Source of the DNA: Sphingobacterium sp. ML3W
GTDB taxonomy: Bacteria > Bacteroidota > Bacteroidia > Sphingobacteriales > Sphingobacteriaceae
DNA length: 64,000 bases
NCBI RefSeq assembly: GCF_000747525.1
Contig: NZ_CP009278.1
Location: 1,550,001 to 1,614,000 of the forward strand
Direction: 5' to 3'
Shown: in pieces, positions 2,282 through 35,591 of the stretch
How the letters are laid out: every line of letters starts with the position of its first letter
Position numbering within the stretch: the first letter of the stretch is position 1
Program-made: the position numbers and the translations under genes
Notes under the pieces: generated by a model
The model's input: the letters and a program-made list of their open reading frames with translations, nothing else
The model's database searches: none
Told to the model about the DNA's origin: nothing

Positions 2282-3562
2282 ATGGCTATTCCTGAAGACC
2301 TATTGCAATTTATATGGAAGTTTCGTCTTTTTCAGACGTACCCATTAGAAACCGTTAATGGAGACCTCATTCATGTCCTTCATGTAGGAGAGCATAATAA
2401 AAATGCGGGTCCCGATTTTTTACTTTCAAAAATCCGCATCGGAAGAGAGGAGTGGACGGGTAGCGTAGAGATTCATGTCAAGTCGTCGGATTGGTTTCTG
2501 CACGGGCATCAGCACGATGCGAAGTATGCAAATGTAATTCTACATGTTGTATGGGACGATGATAAACAAGTTTTTCATGACGATGGTTCAGTCATTCCAA
2601 CCTTTAAATTGGCGGATTATGTTTCGGAAAAGCTGCTAGGGCAATATCAACGGTTGATGGAGGGGCAAAGTTGGATTCCCTGTGAAAGTCAGATACAGCA
2701 TTTAAATACCTTTAAGGTGGAAGGATGGGTTGACCGTATGGCTGTAGAAAGAATGGAAGAGAAATCAAAAGTAATTCTAGGATTGCTTAAAAAATTTGAT
2801 GGAGACTGGGAGAAAACGTTCTTTATCTGGTTGTTTCGAAGTTTAGGATTTAAAGTAAATGCAGAGGCTTTTCAAGCTCTAGGCGAGCAATTGTCTAGCT
2901 TGTTGTTACAAAAGTATAGAAATGACGGACTTAAGTTAGAAGCTATGATTTTTGGTCAAGCAGGACTTTTGAATACAAATTTTGATGAAAGTTATCCCGT
3001 GAAATTACAACAGGAATATCAGTATCTTCAAAAAGCCCACGCTTTGAAGGAAACTCATTTTCCATTGCTTTTTTCGCGGATGCGACCGCATAATTTCCCT
3101 ACAATTCGATTAGCCCAACTAGCCATTTTATTGCAGCATGAGAATATACGTTTACAAGGTATATTGGATTTGGTGAACTTGGACGACTTTAGATGCGTAC
3201 TCGATAATCTTCACATGAATTCGTATTGGAAAAGTCATTTTAATTTTGGAAAGCAGACGCATATCGTCAGTAATCATCGGTTGAGTATGATGACTCAAAA
3301 TAGTTTAATTATTAATGCTGTCATTGCATTTACTTTTTCTTATGGAGATTATTTTAAACAGGAGCATTTTAAAGAAAAGGCGATGAACTGGCTGGAGGAG
3401 CTACCTACAGAGAAGAATAATATTGTTCAGAAATTTGAATATATAGGAATAAATGCTTCGCATGCAGCCCATTCACAAGGCTTATTACACATCAAGAACA
3501 AGTACTGTGACTTAAAAAAATGTTTAAACTGTGGAATTGGCTTAGAGTTATTAAAAAGGTAA
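2282..3562 (+). CDS. DUF2851 family protein with C-terminal cysteine cluster
   Basis: A 426-residue cytoplasmic protein of the DUF2851 family, found across Bacteroidota with no established function. Recognisable conserved stretches are GEHNKNAGPDFLLSKIRI and the following WTGSVEIHVKSSDW, typical of its N-terminal half. The end carries CDLKKCLNCGIG (C-x4-C-x2-C), which could bind a metal or form a disulfide. It lies 38 bases after ribD on the same strand and may be co-transcribed, although a weak TATCTTTA element stands just before its ATG. It converges on the ankyrin gene with a one-base gap. The family call is fairly sure; the role is unknown. Confidence 0.8.
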   Translation: MAIPEDLLQFIWKFRLFQTYPLETVNGDLIHVLHVGEHNKNAGPDFLLSKIRIGREEWTGSVEIHVKSSDWFLHGHQHDAKYANVILHVVWDDDKQVFHDDGSVIPTFKLADYVSEKLLGQYQRLMEGQSWIPCESQIQHLNTFKVEGWVDRMAVERMEEKSKVILGLLKKFDGDWEKTFFIWLFRSLGFKVNAEAFQALGEQLSSLLLQKYRNDGLKLEAMIFGQAGLLNTNFDESYPVKLQQEYQYLQKAHALKETHFPLLFSRMRPHNFPTIRLAQLAILLQHENIRLQGILDLVNLDDFRCVLDNLHMNSYWKSHFNFGKQTHIVSNHRLSMMTQNSLIINAVIAFTFSYGDYFKQEHFKEKAMNWLEELPTEKNNIVQKFEYIGINASHAAHSQGLLHIKNKYCDLKKCLNCGIGLELLKR

Positions 3563-3563
3563 T

Positions 3564-4217
3564 TTACAATTCTTTAAGGATGTTTGAAATGTCACTATAA
3601 CCTTTTGATGCGGCAAGATCCGAAGCCGTTTTGTTGTTTTTGGTCTTTAGTTCAATATGGGATCCATGTTCTAAGAGTAAAACTATGAGTTCAATATTTC
3701 CCATTTGTGCGGCCAAATGTAATGCTGTCACACCATTGTTTTGGGTATTATTGACATTAGCGCCCGCTTCTATGAGCAATTTGCTGATATTATTGTTTTT
3801 GTTTAGTAAGGCAATATGTAAAGGGAAAAGGTTCTCCTCATTTTGAGTAGGGACGTCTGGGTTTGCTTTGTTTTTGAGCAATAGCCTTACCGTATCTTCT
3901 TTATTAAAATGGGTTGCTAGAGCAAGAGCAGAGTATCCATGTGTGGAAATTTCATTGACAACAGTAGGTATCTGTTTGATCATAGCTTCAATATAATTAT
4001 TCAGACCTGCCGCAACCGCCTCATGTATATTCAATCCTTGATTATGTTTTAGGAGCACACGGATAATTTGCGGTTTGTGAAAGTAACAAGCTAATAATAG
4101 TGGTGAAATACCATGACTTGTTTCTTCTAATATTAAAGCAGGATTACTTGTTAAAAGTAAATCTAAATCTCTACTATTTCCAGATTCAATATATTGTTCT
4201 AATATGCTTAAACTCAT
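3564..4217 (-). CDS. Ankyrin repeat protein
   Basis: A 217-residue protein made almost wholly of ankyrin repeats, about five or six, with typical turns such as GYSALALATHFNKEDTVRLL and GVTALHLAAQMGNIELIVLL. Such repeats mediate protein-protein binding. No signal peptide, membrane segment or catalytic domain is visible, so it is probably a cytoplasmic adaptor. It reads toward the DUF2851 gene and nothing around it suggests a partner. The start at 4217 is the first ATG and gives a half repeat at the N terminus. Confidence 0.85.
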   Translation of the reverse strand: MSLSILEQYIESGNSRDLDLLLTSNPALILEETSHGISPLLLACYFHKPQIIRVLLKHNQGLNIHEAVAAGLNNYIEAMIKQIPTVVNEISTHGYSALALATHFNKEDTVRLLLKNKANPDVPTQNEENLFPLHIALLNKNNNISKLLIEAGANVNNTQNNGVTALHLAAQMGNIELIVLLLEHGSHIELKTKNNKTASDLAASKGYSDISNILKEL

Positions 4218-4465
4218 TTTTGTACTATTCGTTTATTTATGGTATCTAAAATAGTGAAAATTTATGATGGAAATCTGTATAAAGAAAAAAAACAAGGAAT
4301 TTATCTACTGTAGTTGATCTTTTTAGCACTGAGACTATGGTCTTTTACTTGCGTTTTTATCCGCGTTTATTGTGGATAAGATAGAATTTGCAACAGTTTT
4401 GTAGATGCATGTTTACAAGTTTAACTGTCGGTTGTTAATTTTTACAAAATTATTATTTCGAATGC
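4218..4465. other. Gene-free stretch upstream of the candidate small RNA
   Basis: About 250 bases between the start of the ankyrin gene and the candidate small RNA. It must hold the ankyrin promoter on the minus strand. I see no complete -33/-7 pair, no ORF of note and no strong hairpin. Confidence 0.5.
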
Positions 4466-4546
4466 TACATTTGTAATGCCCCTCCCAAAGGGCATGTTTT
4501 TCATAGGTAGATGTAGGGTCGAATATTTCTTATTCGACCCTTTTTT
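4466..4546 (+). ncRNA. Candidate small RNA with two hairpins and its own terminator
   Basis: A TACATTTG element (4466-4473) is followed by a hairpin ATGCCC/GGGCAT (4476-4481 with 4490-4495, loop of 8), a short linker, then a perfect 10-bp hairpin GGGTCGAATA/TATTCGACCC (4516-4540, loop of 5) ending in TTTTTT (4541-4546). No gene lies upstream on this strand that would need this terminator, because the ankyrin gene reads away. A short transcript starting near 4475-4480 and ending at 4546 is the simplest reading. The -33 element is poor, and the first hairpin plus its T-run could itself be a terminator, so this is a candidate only. Confidence 0.4.
4516..4546 (+). terminator. Intrinsic terminator overlapping the ubiX promoter
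   Basis: Perfect 10-bp stem with a 5-base loop and six T residues. The ubiX -7 element TAGCTTTG follows immediately at 4548-4555, so the terminator occupies the place of the ubiX -33 region. Confidence 0.8.
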
Positions 4547-4572
4547 ATAGCTTTGCTTATTAAATTGAAAAT

Positions 4573-5136
4573 ATGGCAAGAAAAATTGTAGTGGCGATAA
4601 CTGGGGCTAGTGGTTCCATATATGCTCAAGTTCTGCTGAATCGACTTGTCGAATTGCAAGGTCAGATCAGTGAGGTAGGGGTTGTGATGTCTGATAATGC
4701 CAAAGATGTGTGGCAAGAAGAGTTGCAAAATCAAGATTATAATGATATTCCTTTCCAGTTTTACAATAAAAATGATTTTTTCGCTCCTTTTGCGTCAGGG
4801 TCTGCACGTTTTGATACCATGATTGTCTGCCCTTGCTCGATGGGGACATTGGCTCGTATTGCTCATGGAATCTCTTCAGATTTGACAACGCGAGCTGCGG
4901 ATGTGATATTGAAAGAAAGACGTAAATTAATTTTAGTTACCCGAGAAACACCATTAAGTCACATACATATTCAAAATATGAAGACTGTCAGCGACGCAGG
5001 AGGTATTATTTGCCCGGCATCGCCTTCCTTTTATAGTTTACCTAAGACTTTCGATGAGTTGGCCGGTACAGTTGTTGATCGTGTCTTGAGTTTGGCGGGT
5101 TTTGATTTCGATCATTACCAATGGGGTCAGGAATAG
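4573..5136 (+). CDS. ubiX: Flavin prenyltransferase UbiX
   Basis: UbiX joins dimethylallyl phosphate to FMN to make prenylated FMN, the cofactor of UbiD-type decarboxylases. The 187-residue protein has the family's flavoprotein fold: KIVVAITGASGSIYAQ at the N terminus (FMN phosphate loop), CPCSMGTLARIAHGISSDL in the middle, and RRKLILVTRETPLS with the conserved Arg-Glu pair. No ubiD gene is visible in the window, so the client enzyme must be encoded elsewhere. It is probably a single-gene transcript from the TAGCTTTG element at 4548-4555. Confidence 0.95.
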   Translation: MARKIVVAITGASGSIYAQVLLNRLVELQGQISEVGVVMSDNAKDVWQEELQNQDYNDIPFQFYNKNDFFAPFASGSARFDTMIVCPCSMGTLARIAHGISSDLTTRAADVILKERRKLILVTRETPLSHIHIQNMKTVSDAGGIICPASPSFYSLPKTFDELAGTVVDRVLSLAGFDFDHYQWGQE

Positions 5137-5190
5137 ATGGGTAATACATGAATATTTTTTAAAATTCAATGCAGAATCGATACTATTTTG

Positions 5191-5198
5191 TAACTTTG
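5191..5198 (+). promoter_or_regulatory. -7 element TAACTTTG upstream of the pyrC-like operon
   Basis: TAACTTTG fits the Bacteroidota -7 consensus and would start a transcript near 5203-5205. It is the only good promoter element between ubiX and the dihydroorotase-like gene, which begins about 165 bases later. Confidence 0.4.
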
Positions 5199-5207
5199 TT
5201 TTTTGAA

Positions 5208-5375
5208 ATGAAGCAGTCTAAAGCTACACGTATTAAAAATCATCCTTCCTCTAATTTTCAAAGAGAAAAATCACTGTTTTTATTGGATTCTGTTAAAGAG
5301 ATGATGATTTCATGCTGTAAAACTGCACATATTTACTATTCAAATTCAATAAATTACAATTTCTTAAGCATATGA
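5208..5375 (+). CDS. Possible small protein overlapping the pyrC-like start (55 codons)
   Basis: An ORF beginning with ATG 5208, about ten bases after the TAACTTTG element, and ending in TGA 5373-5375. Its stop overlaps the next start as ATGA, an arrangement typical of translational coupling. The product would be a 55-residue basic, soluble peptide with no motif I recognise. It may instead be just the untranslated leader of the operon. Confidence is low because its composition is not clearly protein-like. Confidence 0.25.
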   Translation: MKQSKATRIKNHPSSNFQREKSLFLLDSVKEMMISCCKTAHIYYSNSINYNFLSI

Positions 5376-6640
5376 AAAGCGTTTTAATTACTTCAGTAAA
5401 AGTGGTTTTGCCAGGAAATGAATTTGATCAACAGGTGGTTGATGTATTCATTGAAAAGGGGAAGATTTCGAAAATTGCAAAATCCATTGAAGTCGCTGAT
5501 AAAAATATTGAAATATTCGACGGTACAGGCAATATTCTTTCTGTCGGTTTTTTTGATTTAAATGCCAATTTTGGAGAACCAGGGTTGGAAACAAAAGAAG
5601 ATATCAGTTCAGGTTCTGCTGCTGCAGCAGCAGGTGGTTTTACAGCAGTAGCGGTTATGCCGAATACAGAACCTGCAATCCAAAGTCGTGCTGAAGTGGC
5701 TTTAATCGTGAATATCGCAAAAGGTAATTTAGTTGATGTATTGCCGATAGGTGCTGTAAGCAGAAACCGTGAGGGCAGTGACATGGCTGAATTGTACGAT
5801 ATGAAAAAAACCGGAGCAATTGCTTTTAGTGATGGCAATAGAAGTATTCAGCAAGCCGGTTTAATGAGCCGTGCTTTGTTATATGCGCGTGGGTTTGGTG
5901 GTTTGATCATCTCTCATGCCGAAGATGCGTCTATGGCAGGTGGAAATAAAATGAATGAGGGTGTTATGAGTACTTATTTGGGCATGAAAGGTATTCCTAA
6001 TCTTGCCGAGACTTTGATGATTTCCCGCGATTTATATTTGGCAGAATATGCCGAATCGCCCATTCACTTCACTTCCATCAGTACTGCAGAAGGGGTAGAT
6101 CTAATTAAAAAAGCGAAAGCGAAAGGAATTCAGGTTACTTGTGATGTTGCAGCCCATCAATTGGTTTTTACAGATGATGATATCTTTAGTTTCGATAGTA
6201 ATTATAAAGTAAATCCGCCATTGCGTACCAAAGCCGATGCAAAAGCGTTAATAAAGGGATTAAAGGATGGTGTTATTGACGCTGTGGTTTCGCAACATAC
6301 TCCGCATGAAATTGAATTTAAAAATGTTGAATTTCATATTGCAAAAAATGGAATAATCGGATTACAAACGGTATTGCCTCTTTTAGTAAAAGCTGGGTTG
6401 AACGATCAACAAATAGTTGAAAAATTAGCTGTAAATTCACGTCAGGTAGTAGGCTTAACCATTCCTCAAATTAAGGAGGGTGAAGAAGCAAATCTCGTGC
6501 TCTTTAATCTGGACGAAGCTTGGGTTTTTGATAATCAGTCAAATAAATCCAAATCAAGAAATAGTCCTTTATTTGGAAAAGAGCTAAAAGGAAAAGTTAA
6601 ATTAGTGATCAATAATGGTCAAATCATAAAAAATGCTTAA
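5372..6640 (+). CDS. Dihydroorotase-like protein lacking most metal ligands
   Basis: A 422-residue protein of the class I dihydroorotase/amidohydrolase family, of normal length and clearly recognisable (MPNTEPAIQSRAEV, SHAEDASMAGG, STAEGVDLIKKAKAKG, KVNPPLRTKAD). Real enzymes read DxHxHxREPG; here it is DLNANFGEPG, so both metal-binding histidines are Asn (residues 64 and 66). The later metal-ligand histidine of the H-x-x-H-x-S-T motif is Ser 235. The catalytic Asp of DHAPH is Gln 308 (QHTPH). His 182 of SHAED and an Asp at about 154 remain. It should not work as a metal-dependent dihydroorotase and resembles the non-catalytic PyrC-prime partners of aspartate transcarbamoylase. It heads an operon with the two following genes. 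Confidence 0.85.
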   Translation: MKSVLITSVKVVLPGNEFDQQVVDVFIEKGKISKIAKSIEVADKNIEIFDGTGNILSVGFFDLNANFGEPGLETKEDISSGSAAAAAGGFTAVAVMPNTEPAIQSRAEVALIVNIAKGNLVDVLPIGAVSRNREGSDMAELYDMKKTGAIAFSDGNRSIQQAGLMSRALLYARGFGGLIISHAEDASMAGGNKMNEGVMSTYLGMKGIPNLAETLMISRDLYLAEYAESPIHFTSISTAEGVDLIKKAKAKGIQVTCDVAAHQLVFTDDDIFSFDSNYKVNPPLRTKADAKALIKGLKDGVIDAVVSQHTPHEIEFKNVEFHIAKNGIIGLQTVLPLLVKAGLNDQQIVEKLAVNSRQVVGLTIPQIKEGEEANLVLFNLDEAWVFDNQSNKSKSRNSPLFGKELKGKVKLVINNGQIIKNA

Positions 6641-6642
6641 TA

Positions 6643-7317
6643 ATGGAAGCGAATATTAAAGCGGCTGTTGCTGCAGGGATCAATACCTACGGTAGAGTAG
6701 ATAACATCGAAACAAAATCAGAGTTCTTAACAAAAGTTGAATCAGTTTTTGATACAGATGGAAAATATATCGATAAATTGGCTTTGTTGGATCAGGCATT
6801 TGACGACTATCCACTATTTGATGAGTTGAGAGAAGTATATGTCGATTTACTATTGATGAATTTCTTCTCTACAGATATTCTAAAATTAGAAGAGGATTAT
6901 TTAGAATCTGAGGAATGGGAGAAAATCGAAGATGAAACGATTGACCGTGGAACAGAATTGTTAAACATATTTTTATATCTACGTGAATGTAAGGATGATG
7001 AAATCGATCCAGATTTAGATGATTACTTGAAAGAGTTCTTGTTGGTTGATGAGGATGAATTCCAGGATGAGCATGAGATCTATGAAGATATCATTGCAAA
7101 TCAAATTTTAGTAGAGAGTACATATGCAGAAATTGCGAAGACAGCGAAAACAATTGACCCTTCAAGTGAGGTTTATGAGTTGTTTTATGCGATCTTAAGT
7201 TTCTTTAGCGAAATTAATCCAAAAGAGGCTCAATTAGCAGATTATGAGGCTCAAAGTGAAAACAAAGCTTTTGACGCAGCACTTTATCAAGTCATCACTA
7301 ACTTTTACAAAGCGTAA
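6643..7317 (+). CDS. Acidic protein of unknown function
   Basis: A 224-residue, strongly acidic, probably all-helical cytoplasmic protein, rich in Glu/Asp clusters such as LEEDYLESEEWEKIEDE and DEDEFQDEHE. No signal peptide or membrane segment. I do not recognise the family. It begins two bases after the dihydroorotase-like stop, and its own stop overlaps the next start by one base (TAATG), so the three genes are almost certainly one operon. Its acidic character could fit a binding or chaperone role, but nothing in the sequence shows this. Confidence 0.7.
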   Translation: MEANIKAAVAAGINTYGRVDNIETKSEFLTKVESVFDTDGKYIDKLALLDQAFDDYPLFDELREVYVDLLLMNFFSTDILKLEEDYLESEEWEKIEDETIDRGTELLNIFLYLRECKDDEIDPDLDDYLKEFLLVDEDEFQDEHEIYEDIIANQILVESTYAEIAKTAKTIDPSSEVYELFYAILSFFSEINPKEAQLADYEAQSENKAFDAALYQVITNFYKA

Positions 7318-7913
7318 TGGAAGTTGGCGTTGACAAAAATAGTAAGATTACAAGTATCGTATATGGTGTTGTCTTGGGGGTTACTTCTTTTGTTTTGGGA
7401 TTATTTTCTATTTATTCAATAAAACCATTAGAGGGAACATCTTTATTACAATTCATCAATCCTTTTTTTAACTTTATTTTATTTTTTGGTGTTACGGTTT
7501 TACTAACCTTTTCGCTAAGAAAAAAAATGGGTGGAATATGGGATTTTACTAAAGCTGTAAAATGTATTTACATCATGCTTGTTATTAACCATTTAGTCGC
7601 TTCAGTAAGTACTTTTTCATATTTAAGCTATTTTGAACCAACAATTCAAGAGGAAAATTTTCATATCATGATGAATGCTCGGATTGAAAGTATGGAAAAT
7701 AGTACAGCCTTTGATAGTGAAGAGGAAAAGCAGCAAACAATTGATATGAGTATAGAACAAATGGAGAAGGATAATGAATCAGTTGCTACGATGACTTTAG
7801 GGGCGCGTATGAAAGGTTTTGTTATTACACTACTTCCTTATTTTTTGTTTGCCCTATTGTTAGCAGCATTGACAAAGAATGGTCAAAAAAGTATAGGTAA
7901 TCCTACAGTTTAA
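7317..7913 (+). CDS. DUF4199 family membrane protein
   Basis: A 198-residue inner-membrane protein with four predicted membrane segments, at about residues 9-31, 45-64, 78-100 and 165-185, and a charged loop between the third and fourth. The pattern and the stretch RKKMGGIWDFTKAVKC match DUF4199, a Bacteroidota family with no known function. DUF4199 genes often stand directly before a family 2 glycosyltransferase, as here, which suggests a link to polyprenyl-sugar or envelope glycan synthesis. This link is inference from context. Confidence 0.75.
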   Translation: MEVGVDKNSKITSIVYGVVLGVTSFVLGLFSIYSIKPLEGTSLLQFINPFFNFILFFGVTVLLTFSLRKKMGGIWDFTKAVKCIYIMLVINHLVASVSTFSYLSYFEPTIQEENFHIMMNARIESMENSTAFDSEEEKQQTIDMSIEQMEKDNESVATMTLGARMKGFVITLLPYFLFALLLAALTKNGQKSIGNPTV

Positions 7914-7941
7914 AAGTATAATTTTTAAATAAAATCAATAC

Positions 7942-33165: not shown

Positions 33166-33215
33166 ACTCATAAAAAAACCCTTTCAGCATATGCTGAAAG
33201 GGTTTTTTTATGAGT
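33166..33215. terminator. Bidirectional terminator, perfect 50-base palindrome
   Basis: Two 25-base arms (33166-33190 and 33191-33215; left arm begins ACTCATAAAAAAACCC) are exact reverse complements with no spacer. Each strand ends in a run of seven T residues after the GC-richer core CCCTTTCAGCAT. It lies between the convergent lipoprotein and hisD genes. Confidence 0.9.
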
Positions 33216-33223
33216 TTAATCAA

Positions 33224-34513
33224 TTACTTCATTTTCCGAATACTAACAGCGTTCTTATGTGCGTGTAGCCCTTCTAATTCTGCAAGAATCTCTACAGTGG
33301 AACCTATATTTAATAAACCGTCTGGACTGATGTGTTGGAAAGTAATCTTTTTAACAAAAGAATCAACCGATACACCAGAATAAGATTTTGCATAGCCAGA
33401 AGTCGGAAGCGTATGATTCGTTCCTGAAGCATAATCACCTACGCTCTCTGGTGTTAAATGTCCTAAAAATACAGAACCTGCATTTAAAATAAGACGGATT
33501 AAACGTTCCCATTCATCTGTCTCTAAAATCAGATGTTCAGGGGCATAAGCATTACTAAATGCAATTGCTTTTTGTAGATCGGTTACCAATACAGCATAGG
33601 AATTTTCGATTGCCTTGTTTGCTAATTCAAAACGCGGTAAAACAGCTAATTGTTTTTCTAGTTCTAGATTTACCTCCGCAATAATACTTGCCGATGTCGC
33701 GACCAATACCGCTTGGCTGTCCGCTCCATGCTCTGCTTGTGCTAATAAATCAGCAGCAACAAAAGCAGGTGTTGCCGTCTCGTCAGCAATGACCAATACT
33801 TCGGAAGGACCTGCCGGCATGTCGATGCTAACATTTGTCATTCCTTGAACAATACTTTTTGCCTTAGTTACAAATTGATTACCAGGTCCAAATATTTTAT
33901 ATACTTGAGGAATGGTTTCTGTACCGAAAGCCATTGCGGCAATGGCTTGGGCTCCACCGACTAGATAGATGCGCTCTATTTTTAAAAGTTTGAGACAATA
34001 GGCTACAAAACCATTAATTTTTCCGCTTTTTTGAGGTGGAGAACAAACAACAATCTCTTTACAGCCGGCAATTCGAGCGGGTACCCCTAGCATCAATAAG
34101 GTGCTAGGTAATACGGCAGAACCGCCAGGGATATAAAGACCTACCTTCTCAATCGGACGAATTTCTCGCCAACATTTTACGCCTGCTGTTGTTTCTACGA
34201 CACGCTCACGTTTTACTTGTGAAGAGTGAAATTTATGAATATTTTGAAAGGCAATTTCTAAAGCTCTTTGTTGATCGCGATTAATGGTAGACGCTAATGC
34301 ATCAATATCGTCGGAGTCGAGATAAAGCTTTTCTAGCTCAACTTTGTCAAATTGCTGTGCATAGTGAATTAAAGCTTTATCGCCATTTTGACGTACCTCT
34401 TGTATAATATCCAAAACAGTATCTTGGATAGCATGGGAAGGGTCTGTATTACGCGTCGTTAATGCCAGCAGTTCTGCTGGTGTTAGCGTAGCATATTCAA
34501 AAGTTTTAAGCAT
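33224..34513 (-). CDS. hisD: Histidinol dehydrogenase
   Basis: HisD oxidises histidinol to histidine with two NAD+, the last two steps of histidine synthesis. From ATG 34513 it has 429 residues, the normal length (ATG 34516 is equally possible; an upstream frame to 34594 would overlap hisG). Typical parts are GLYIPGGSAVLPSTLLMLG, VVCSPPQKSGKINGF, IFGPGNQFVTKAK, DMPAGPSEVLVIAD, QAEHGADSQAVLV and APEHLIL, which hold the zinc ligands and catalytic Glu-His. hisG lies 35 bases upstream, and no further his gene follows before the terminator. Confidence 0.97.
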   Translation of the reverse strand: MLKTFEYATLTPAELLALTTRNTDPSHAIQDTVLDIIQEVRQNGDKALIHYAQQFDKVELEKLYLDSDDIDALASTINRDQQRALEIAFQNIHKFHSSQVKRERVVETTAGVKCWREIRPIEKVGLYIPGGSAVLPSTLLMLGVPARIAGCKEIVVCSPPQKSGKINGFVAYCLKLLKIERIYLVGGAQAIAAMAFGTETIPQVYKIFGPGNQFVTKAKSIVQGMTNVSIDMPAGPSEVLVIADETATPAFVAADLLAQAEHGADSQAVLVATSASIIAEVNLELEKQLAVLPRFELANKAIENSYAVLVTDLQKAIAFSNAYAPEHLILETDEWERLIRLILNAGSVFLGHLTPESVGDYASGTNHTLPTSGYAKSYSGVSVDSFVKKITFQHISPDGLLNIGSTVEILAELEGLHAHKNAVSIRKMK

Positions 34514-34547
34514 CATGAATTTTGTTTTAAGCGCAGAGCGCTTATTA

Positions 34548-35399
34548 TTACATAATAATTTTTTCAATCGGCATGACCACAATTCCTTGTGCACCTGCAG
34601 ACTTCAACTTGTTGATCTTATCCCAAAAGTCATCTTCTGAAATAACAGTATGTACAGCTACCCATCCTTCTTCTGCTAGAGGAACGACGGTTGGCGATTT
34701 TACACCATGTAAAAGTGCTGTAATCGTTGGTAAATTTATCTTTTCGACATTGAGAACGACATATTTCGTTTCTTTGGCTAATAAGACTGATTGAATTCTT
34801 TGTAAAAGTTCTGCTAAGATTTCATTATCCTCTATACCCGGGCGACCAATTAATATCGCTTCAGATTTACGGACATCAGCAAACTGTTTGAGTCCATTAT
34901 TTTTTAGTGTCCCGCCGGTGGAAACAATATCACAGATAGCATCGCTAAGCCCCAATCCAGGTGCAATTTCTACAGAACCTGAAATCATTTGGATATCCGC
35001 CTCAATACGATATTCATCCAAAAACTTCTTTAAGATAACGGGGTAAGAGGTTGCGATAGATTTGCCATTTAGATCTTTAAGATCTTTAATATGACTGTCT
35101 TTTTGAACGGCTAATTTCAAAGTGCATTTTCCAAAACCAAGACGCTGTAAGTAATTAACCTCAGATTCTGTTTCATCAATAACGTTTTCTCCAACTATTC
35201 CTAGATCTGCAATCCCTTGTTCTACGTATCCTGGGATATCATCGTCACGAAGGAAAAGAATTTCAAGAGGAAAATTAGAAACGGTTGTTATTAAAGAACT
35301 TTTATAGTTTTCGAAGTCAAGACCACAGTTTTTGAGTAATTGAACAGACTTTTCGTTTAGTCTACCCGATTTTTGGATAGCAATTTTAAGATTTTTCAA
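34548..35399 (-). CDS. hisG: ATP phosphoribosyltransferase, long form
   Basis: HisG condenses ATP with PRPP, the first and feedback-controlled step of histidine synthesis. At 283 residues it is the long form, with the catalytic domains at 1-210 (IAQKSGRL-like start IAIQKSGRLNEKS, SGSVEIAPGLGLSDAICDIVSTGGTL) and the C-terminal histidine-sensing domain (NLPTITALLHGVKSPTVVPL, TVISEDDFWDKINKLKSAGA, GIVVMPIEKIIM). It is the first structural gene after the histidine leader peptide and a terminator hairpin, so its mRNA level should follow charged tRNA-His. hisD follows. Confidence 0.98.
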   Translation of the reverse strand: MKNLKIAIQKSGRLNEKSVQLLKNCGLDFENYKSSLITTVSNFPLEILFLRDDDIPGYVEQGIADLGIVGENVIDETESEVNYLQRLGFGKCTLKLAVQKDSHIKDLKDLNGKSIATSYPVILKKFLDEYRIEADIQMISGSVEIAPGLGLSDAICDIVSTGGTLKNNGLKQFADVRKSEAILIGRPGIEDNEILAELLQRIQSVLLAKETKYVVLNVEKINLPTITALLHGVKSPTVVPLAEEGWVAVHTVISEDDFWDKINKLKSAGAQGIVVMPIEKIIM

Positions 35400-35452
35400 A
35401 GCTTTATAATGTTAGCTGTAAATTATTAATAAATAGAAATCAAACACAAGGG

Positions 35453-35479
35453 AAAAAATGCTTCACGTAGAAACACCCT
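35453..35479 (-). terminator. his attenuator terminator
   Basis: On the minus strand, just after the leader-peptide stop, TGTTTC and GAAGCA pair around the loop TACGT (one G-U pair), followed by six T residues; an outer AGGG/CCCT pairing also exists. The hairpin lies between the leader peptide and hisG, as needed for attenuation. The stem is modest, and I could not calculate its stability. Confidence 0.55.
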
Positions 35480-35481
35480 AA

Positions 35482-35541
35482 TTACATATCGCCGCAATGG
35501 CGATGATGCATATGAAAGTGATGTCCGTGAGCAAAAATCAT
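35482..35541 (-). CDS. his operon leader peptide
   Basis: A 19-residue ORF, MIFAHGHHFHMHHRHCGDM, with seven histidines, ending in TAA 83 bases before the hisG start. Translation of such a peptide stalls when charged tRNA-His is scarce, which in enterobacteria switches the mRNA from a terminator to an antiterminator fold. The codons for residues 13-18 overlap a hairpin ATCGCC-ATTGC-GGCGAT (complement of 35488-35504), the expected pause structure. A full promoter stands just upstream. Confidence 0.85.
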   Translation of the reverse strand: MIFAHGHHFHMHHRHCGDM

Positions 35542-35560
35542 GTTTGTATTAATAATGAGC

Positions 35561-35591
35561 CAAAAATAATACTTTGTTAATAGAAATCAAA
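35561..35591 (-). promoter_or_regulatory. hisGD promoter, complete -33/-7 match
   Basis: On the minus strand TTTG (complement of 35588-35591), exactly 19 bases, then TATTTTTG (complement of 35561-35568). Transcription would start near 35554-35557, about 14 bases before the leader-peptide ATG. Confidence 0.75.

Follow-up and report, generated by a model that had tools for sequence, protein, structure and literature searches.

Amino-acid attenuation is usually understood as the combination of a leader peptide and a terminator, and the DNA upstream of hisGD in Sphingobacterium sp. ML3W raises the question of whether both parts are present there. The original prediction was that this stretch holds a complete histidine attenuator in the enterobacterial arrangement, with a hairpin and six T residues standing behind a His-rich open reading frame (ORF), and that transcription of hisGD depends on charged tRNA-His. 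We examined the locus in the window (the whole stretch of DNA that was analysed, 64,000 nt) and in its relatives. The source genome is one contig of 5.33 Mb, and its closest named relative is Sphingobacterium faecium, with a HisG that is 98% identical. Both genes of the operon match NCBIfam models, and the terminator behind them serves as an in-operon yardstick:

34548-35399, minus strand: hisG, with its TTG start codon at 35399.
33224-34594, minus strand: hisD, coordinates of the listed open reading frame; the gene itself starts at an internal position.
33169-33212, minus strand: strong intrinsic terminator at the 3′ end of hisGD (-28.5 kcal/mol).

The remaining his genes (hisC, hisB, hisH, hisA, hisF and hisI) form a separate cluster at C1:670891-675921 of the same genome (about 2892-7922 of locus L241), and a check of this second operon (hisC to hisI) found no His leader. 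Any switch at hisG would thus govern hisGD alone in this genome. A search of the genome for further copies of the leader element returned a single copy, at hisG.

The first step in answering the question is whether a leader gene is present. Two features bear on it:

35561-35591, minus strand: promoter, with TTTG at 35591-35588, 19 nt, and TATTTTTG at 35568-35561.
35482-35541, minus strand: leader ORF MIFAHGHHFHMHHRHCGDM, read from 35541 to 35482, with 19 codons and 7 His, identified by sequence and conservation.

The promoter is present in the sequence as originally described and is of the typical Bacteroidota type; among 60 non-redundant representatives of the family, 59 have a TAnnTTTG box 5′ of the leader ATG. 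Start sites are predicted ones throughout. The seven-His ORF is likewise where it had been placed, and it lies beyond chance: an ATG ORF of at most 40 amino acids with seven His arose in none of 20,000 dinucleotide-preserving shuffles of the region, and one with at least five His in 33. Relatives had been proposed as a check on the ORF, and an ATG ORF with at least four His is found upstream of hisG in 157 of 164 Sphingobacteriaceae regions, where typical leader peptides resemble FTHHVHFHHRHCGD. Most other Bacteroidota sampled also have a His ORF upstream of hisG. A simple promoter/terminator scanner gave the leader no score beyond that of shuffles. Judged from sequence and its conservation, the His-rich leader gene before hisGD is real and is conserved throughout the Sphingobacteriaceae.

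The RNA structure around this ORF is more elaborate than the two local hairpins of the original prediction, which did not include the long-range helices P1 and 1:4. None of 200 shuffles folds as well as the 131-nt leader (z -4.1), whose elements are, in 5′ to 3′ order:

35539-35556, minus strand: 5′ strand of helix P1, ATTATTAATACAAACATG, from the 5′ UTR to the leader ATG; its covariation partner is the stretch 5′ of hisG (z -8.9 to -10).
35526-35533, minus strand: segment 1, TGCTCACG, whose rod partner is segment 4; helix 1:4 covaries (z -7.5 to -10.2).
35505-35520, minus strand: segment 2, CACTTTCATATGCATC, whose rod partner is 35487-35474; helix 2:3 covaries (z -3.6 to -6.2).
35488-35504, minus strand: hairpin P2, ATCGCC-attgc-GGCGAT, covering the final His codons, with arms at 35504-35499 and 35493-35488.
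35459-35475, minus strand: hairpin P3, TGTTTC-TACGT-GAAGCA, made of segments 3 and 4, with arms at 35475-35470 and 35464-35459.
35459-35467, minus strand: segment 4, CGTGAAGCA, paired either with segment 1 in the rod or inside P3.
35422-35446, minus strand: 3′ strand of P1, comprising TGTTTG at 35446-35441 and TATTAATAAT at 35431-35422.

The long-range helices come from an unbiased covariation test over all 45 pairs of leader regions, in which the within-genome duplex energy was compared with that of permuted partners in the 48 species with short spacing before hisG. Four pairs stand out: P1, which joins the 5′ UTR to the pre-hisG stretch (z -8.9); 1:4, between the start of the ORF and the 3′ arm of P3 (z -7.5); the arms of P3 (z -7.2); and 2:3, between the middle of the ORF and the segment that separates the stop codon from P3 (z -3.6). 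One additional region pair, at z -3.2, is unexplained. When all 60 representatives are used, the scores are z -10 for P1 and 1:4 and z -6.2 for 2:3, with control pairs at +0.8 to -2.5; because many representatives share common ancestry, these permutation z-scores do not translate into probabilities. Examples of P1 strands from relatives are UUUAAUCAGGAACCAA/UUGGUCUGAUUAAA and AUUAUUAAAAAGAC/GUCUUUUAAUAAU. Both hairpins are also upheld by comparison. P2, the ATCGCC/GGCGAT hairpin that had been described as overlapping the His codons, is present and is paired in 100% of cells, with one pair doubly changed (34 species), and P3 (GUUUC-UACGU-GAAGC) is paired in 97.5% of cells, with 6 of 6 pairs changed on both sides. 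Together the helices build a rod, with 1:4 as its base, 2:3 in the middle and P2 at the tip; P1 seals this rod, and P3 and the rod are mutually exclusive. The alternative leader folds that had been suggested as a check are therefore supported, as P3 against 1:4 and 2:3, all of them covarying. The structural evidence throughout is comparative or thermodynamic.

The second part of an attenuator is the terminator, for which the candidate is P3 together with the run that follows it:

35453-35458, minus strand: T6 run directly 3′ of P3, present, of the relatives examined, in the S. faecium clade alone.

As sequence, the second hairpin and its six T residues are there as predicted. The terminator role assigned to them is not supported: the window's P3 is weak (-6.5 kcal/mol versus -28.5 for the operon's own 3′ terminator), a terminator scanner run on the window did not call P3 plus T6, and a U-rich tail 3′ of P3 is present in 6 of 60 family representatives. 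A scan of these 60 for intrinsic terminators yielded none that we accepted; its calls in two loci (L098 and L105) fell on the P2 hairpin, which has AT-rich sequence behind it there, and were set aside. The same scan finds a strong intrinsic terminator in 31 of 42 his leaders outside the Sphingobacteriaceae. By this comparison of genomes, the Sphingobacteriaceae his leader has no conserved intrinsic terminator.

How the position of the ribosome would select between P3 and the rod was calculated by equilibrium folding with the ribosome masked, using an assumed footprint. The mean probability of P3 is 0.20 in free RNA, 0.86 with the ribosome on the first His codon and 0.03 with the ribosome at the stop codon; in the window it is 0.84-1.00 for stalls at codons 5-13 and 0.00 at the stop codon. 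This contrast between stall and stop is robust if the leading edge is set anywhere from A+10 to A+14; with an edge at A+8 or A+9, the probability at the stop codon rises to 0.54 or 0.49, respectively, versus 0.85. Stalling also weakens P1 in 42 of 48 species, from a mean of 5.0 to 2.8 kcal/mol and from 5.1 to 1.3 kcal/mol in the window. Sister-family terminators put through the same masked calculation have a probability of 0.95 with the ribosome at the stop codon, and upon stalling fall modestly at equilibrium, to 0.79-0.83; since this fall is so modest, masked folding is a better guide to footprint masking than to antiterminator strength. The conserved leader and the exclusive RNA folds, predicted to be sensitive to ribosome position, make it very probable that expression of hisGD responds to charged tRNA-His. 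That part of the earlier claim is retained, whereas the complete, enterobacterial-type attenuator is not supported.

These findings lead us to propose that a ribosome-stalling switch that senses charged tRNA-His precedes hisGD, that it operates without a conserved intrinsic terminator and that it probably acts on translation of hisG; we consider the chances of this whole reading to be about even. When histidine is sufficient, the ribosome would complete the leader and depart, and the free RNA would fold into the long rod, P2 and 2:3 followed by 1:4 and then by P1, which pairs the leader 5′ UTR with the AU-rich stretch just 5′ of hisG. This would be the OFF state. When charged tRNA-His is scarce, the ribosome would halt on the His codons and cover segments 1 and 2, and P3 would then form from segments 3 and 4, with the rod lost, P1 weakened and hisG expressed. 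We infer from this scheme that the stalled state is ON, and the output would be translation of hisG, with P1 limiting access to a weak TTG or GTG start at a fixed distance. For the family as a whole we suggest, tentatively and with confidence a little short of even, that a translational switch replaces the terminator of the relatives, that P1 couples the starts of the leader and of hisG, and that P3 is the ON structure of the stalled ribosome.

Translation of hisG is favored as the controlled step because of its start codons, its fixed spacing and the weakening of P1 upon stalling. The gene starts with TTG or GTG in 46 of 47 short-spacing species, with ATG in 12 of 13 long-spacing species and with ATG in 41 of 44 cases outside the family. 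To place the long spacer on the HisG tree takes three or more independent changes. The distance from P3 to hisG hardly varies (sd 1.8 nt in Sphingobacterium and 3.5 nt in other genera), and the distance from the U tract to hisG outside the family has an sd of 33 nt. In the short-spacing species P1 pairs positions -30 to -8 relative to hisG and leaves the start codon itself unpaired. Direct occlusion of the hisG start does not show in its mean accessibility, which in equilibrium folding (-22 to +10) is the same in both states. The switch, mostly including P1, is retained where hisG starts 78-190 nt past P3, which argues against a translational output. The start codon and the spacing could be inherited features that have no function.

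This retention is what transcriptional control would lead one to expect, and it fits a variant in which the same stalling switch has a Rho-dependent output. Once the leader is finished, Rho would load on the C-containing sequence that lies untranslated between P3 and hisG, and upon stalling the changed fold or occupancy would keep it from doing so. A run of at least three C lies 2-18 nt past P3 in 39 of 60 representatives (35452-35450 in the window), compared with 17 of 216 control windows; a G-rich partner for this single-stranded run was sought within the leader and none was found. However, in the OFF state P1 takes up part of the stretch that Rho would need, and a Rho output leaves the fixed spacing and the weak start codons of hisG unexplained. 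We regard this variant as possible but unlikely.

Lower still in our estimation is a terminator private to the S. faecium clade, made of the base of the rod (1:4, TGCTCACG/CGTGAAGCA) and T6 and active except when a ribosome is stalled at the His codons. Free RNA is predicted to fold into the rod, whose end abuts T6, and the arrangement has the right sign, since in the window 1:4 is lost upon stalling and is predicted with the ribosome at the stop codon. Nevertheless, nearly all relatives with the same fold lack the T run, the structure would be a bulged 8-bp base beneath a large loop, unlike the operon's own terminator, and the scanner did not call it. These points make such a terminator improbable.

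The classical his attenuator, in which P3 and T6 form the terminator with the ribosome at the stop codon, is very unlikely. It is suggested by the hairpin and six T residues behind a His-rich ORF and by the genuine examples in sister families. In those families the terminators start 19-46 nt past the stop codon. In 57 of 60 Sphingobacteriaceae representatives, by contrast, P3 starts 5-14 nt past the first base of the stop codon, inside the ribosome footprint, and the U run is not conserved. A ribosome at the stop masks P3, and a stalled one lets it form, so that as a terminator P3 would turn the operon off in histidine starvation. On this wrong sign the classical reading fails, and with it the description of the locus as a complete attenuator of the enterobacterial type. 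Least probable of all is that a repressor binds TGTTTC-TACGT-GAAGCA as its DNA operator, or that the RNA is a ligand-binding riboswitch, with an incidental ORF: the palindrome does have a nearly invariant centre, but its arms vary with compensation that includes G-U pairs, the His ORF and the stop-to-P3 distance are conserved along with it, and Rfam offers no match.

The translational stalling switch that we prefer shares features with several known systems. Like the enterobacterial his attenuator, it would use a His-rich leader ORF before hisG and let ribosome position select the RNA fold; here, however, there is no conserved terminator, the hisG-proximal hairpin is predicted to form on stalling rather than on completion, the stop codon lies 5-14 nt from that hairpin and a long-range P1 is present. 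The Rfam His_leader covariance model gives no match at the gathering threshold or at E up to 10. The terminator-type his leaders of Flavobacteriaceae, Cytophagales and the neighbouring Ignavibacteria precede the same gene with the same kind of His ORF, in the same phylum or its neighbours, and differ in their strong U-tailed terminators and ATG hisG start. In erm-type translational attenuation, stalling on a leader ORF likewise switches folds with no need of a terminator, but P1 pairs upstream of the start and not over the SD sequence or start codon, and the sensor here would be His codons. For some attenuators, an RBS-sequestering structure in place of the terminator has been mentioned (PMC9413887). 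The Bacteroid-trp leader RNA (RF01692), a putative amino-acid leader RNA of Bacteroidota (PMC2864571), comes from the same phylum but belongs to another operon, and its covariance model has no match in the region.

Rfam searches at gathering and relaxed thresholds produced no relevant match for the element. R1, a model that we built, recovers it within the Sphingobacteriaceae, and among 247 genomes of the class the confident matches came from that family only; his leaders of Flavobacteriaceae are among the weak matches elsewhere. In view of these weak matches, the his leaders of Sphingobacteriaceae and those of the terminator type in other Bacteroidota and neighbouring groups probably share leader ancestry. 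Earlier work on a flavobacterium reported clues that leader peptides attenuate amino-acid operons, and for Flavobacterium psychrophilum a structured hisG 5′ element that is conserved in Flavobacteriaceae and has no Rfam match (PMC9723704). The literature searched, which did not extend to older attenuation papers behind subscription, contained no description of the Sphingobacteriaceae element.

A whole family thus retains the leader and a bistable fold without a conserved terminator, and its sister families within the phylum possess one; this contrast provides a natural comparison for the rewiring of attenuator output. It also carries a caution: a weak hairpin and T residues behind a His-rich ORF are insufficient for calling a transcription attenuator.

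Several further observations concern individual lineages. Outside the family, in other Bacteroidota families and neighbours (L176-L216, L068, L069), U-tailed-terminator His leaders are widespread, with several more recognised by eye in addition to those found by the scan. In Pontibacter and related loci (L065-L067, L186, L197) the His leader ends in HHFHHSS and a hairpin lies at the stop codon; no U-tailed terminator was found in these leaders, which are possibly a second terminator-less variant. Within the Sphingobacteriaceae, loci from other genera (L104, L106, L108, L135, L160-L162) have the His-rich leader and lack the usual form of P3, and the switch seems to have been replaced or rebuilt there. 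In L093, L103, L110, L113 and similar loci the P1 5′ strand can fold on itself within the 5′ UTR as a small hairpin, for example CCCAAgcatatTTGGG, and in these several genera this may be a further competing state. A spacer of about 60-250 nt separates P1 from hisG in L011, L013, L021, L092, L096, L097, L101, L105 and L155. An origin of this spacer as a repeat or mobile element was rejected, there being no repeats of it in the genome tested. In several cases it lies directly 3′ of an apparent old TTG AAA start, with hisG then starting at ATG, and it often carries a hairpin, CTGCATGA...TCATGCAAGC.
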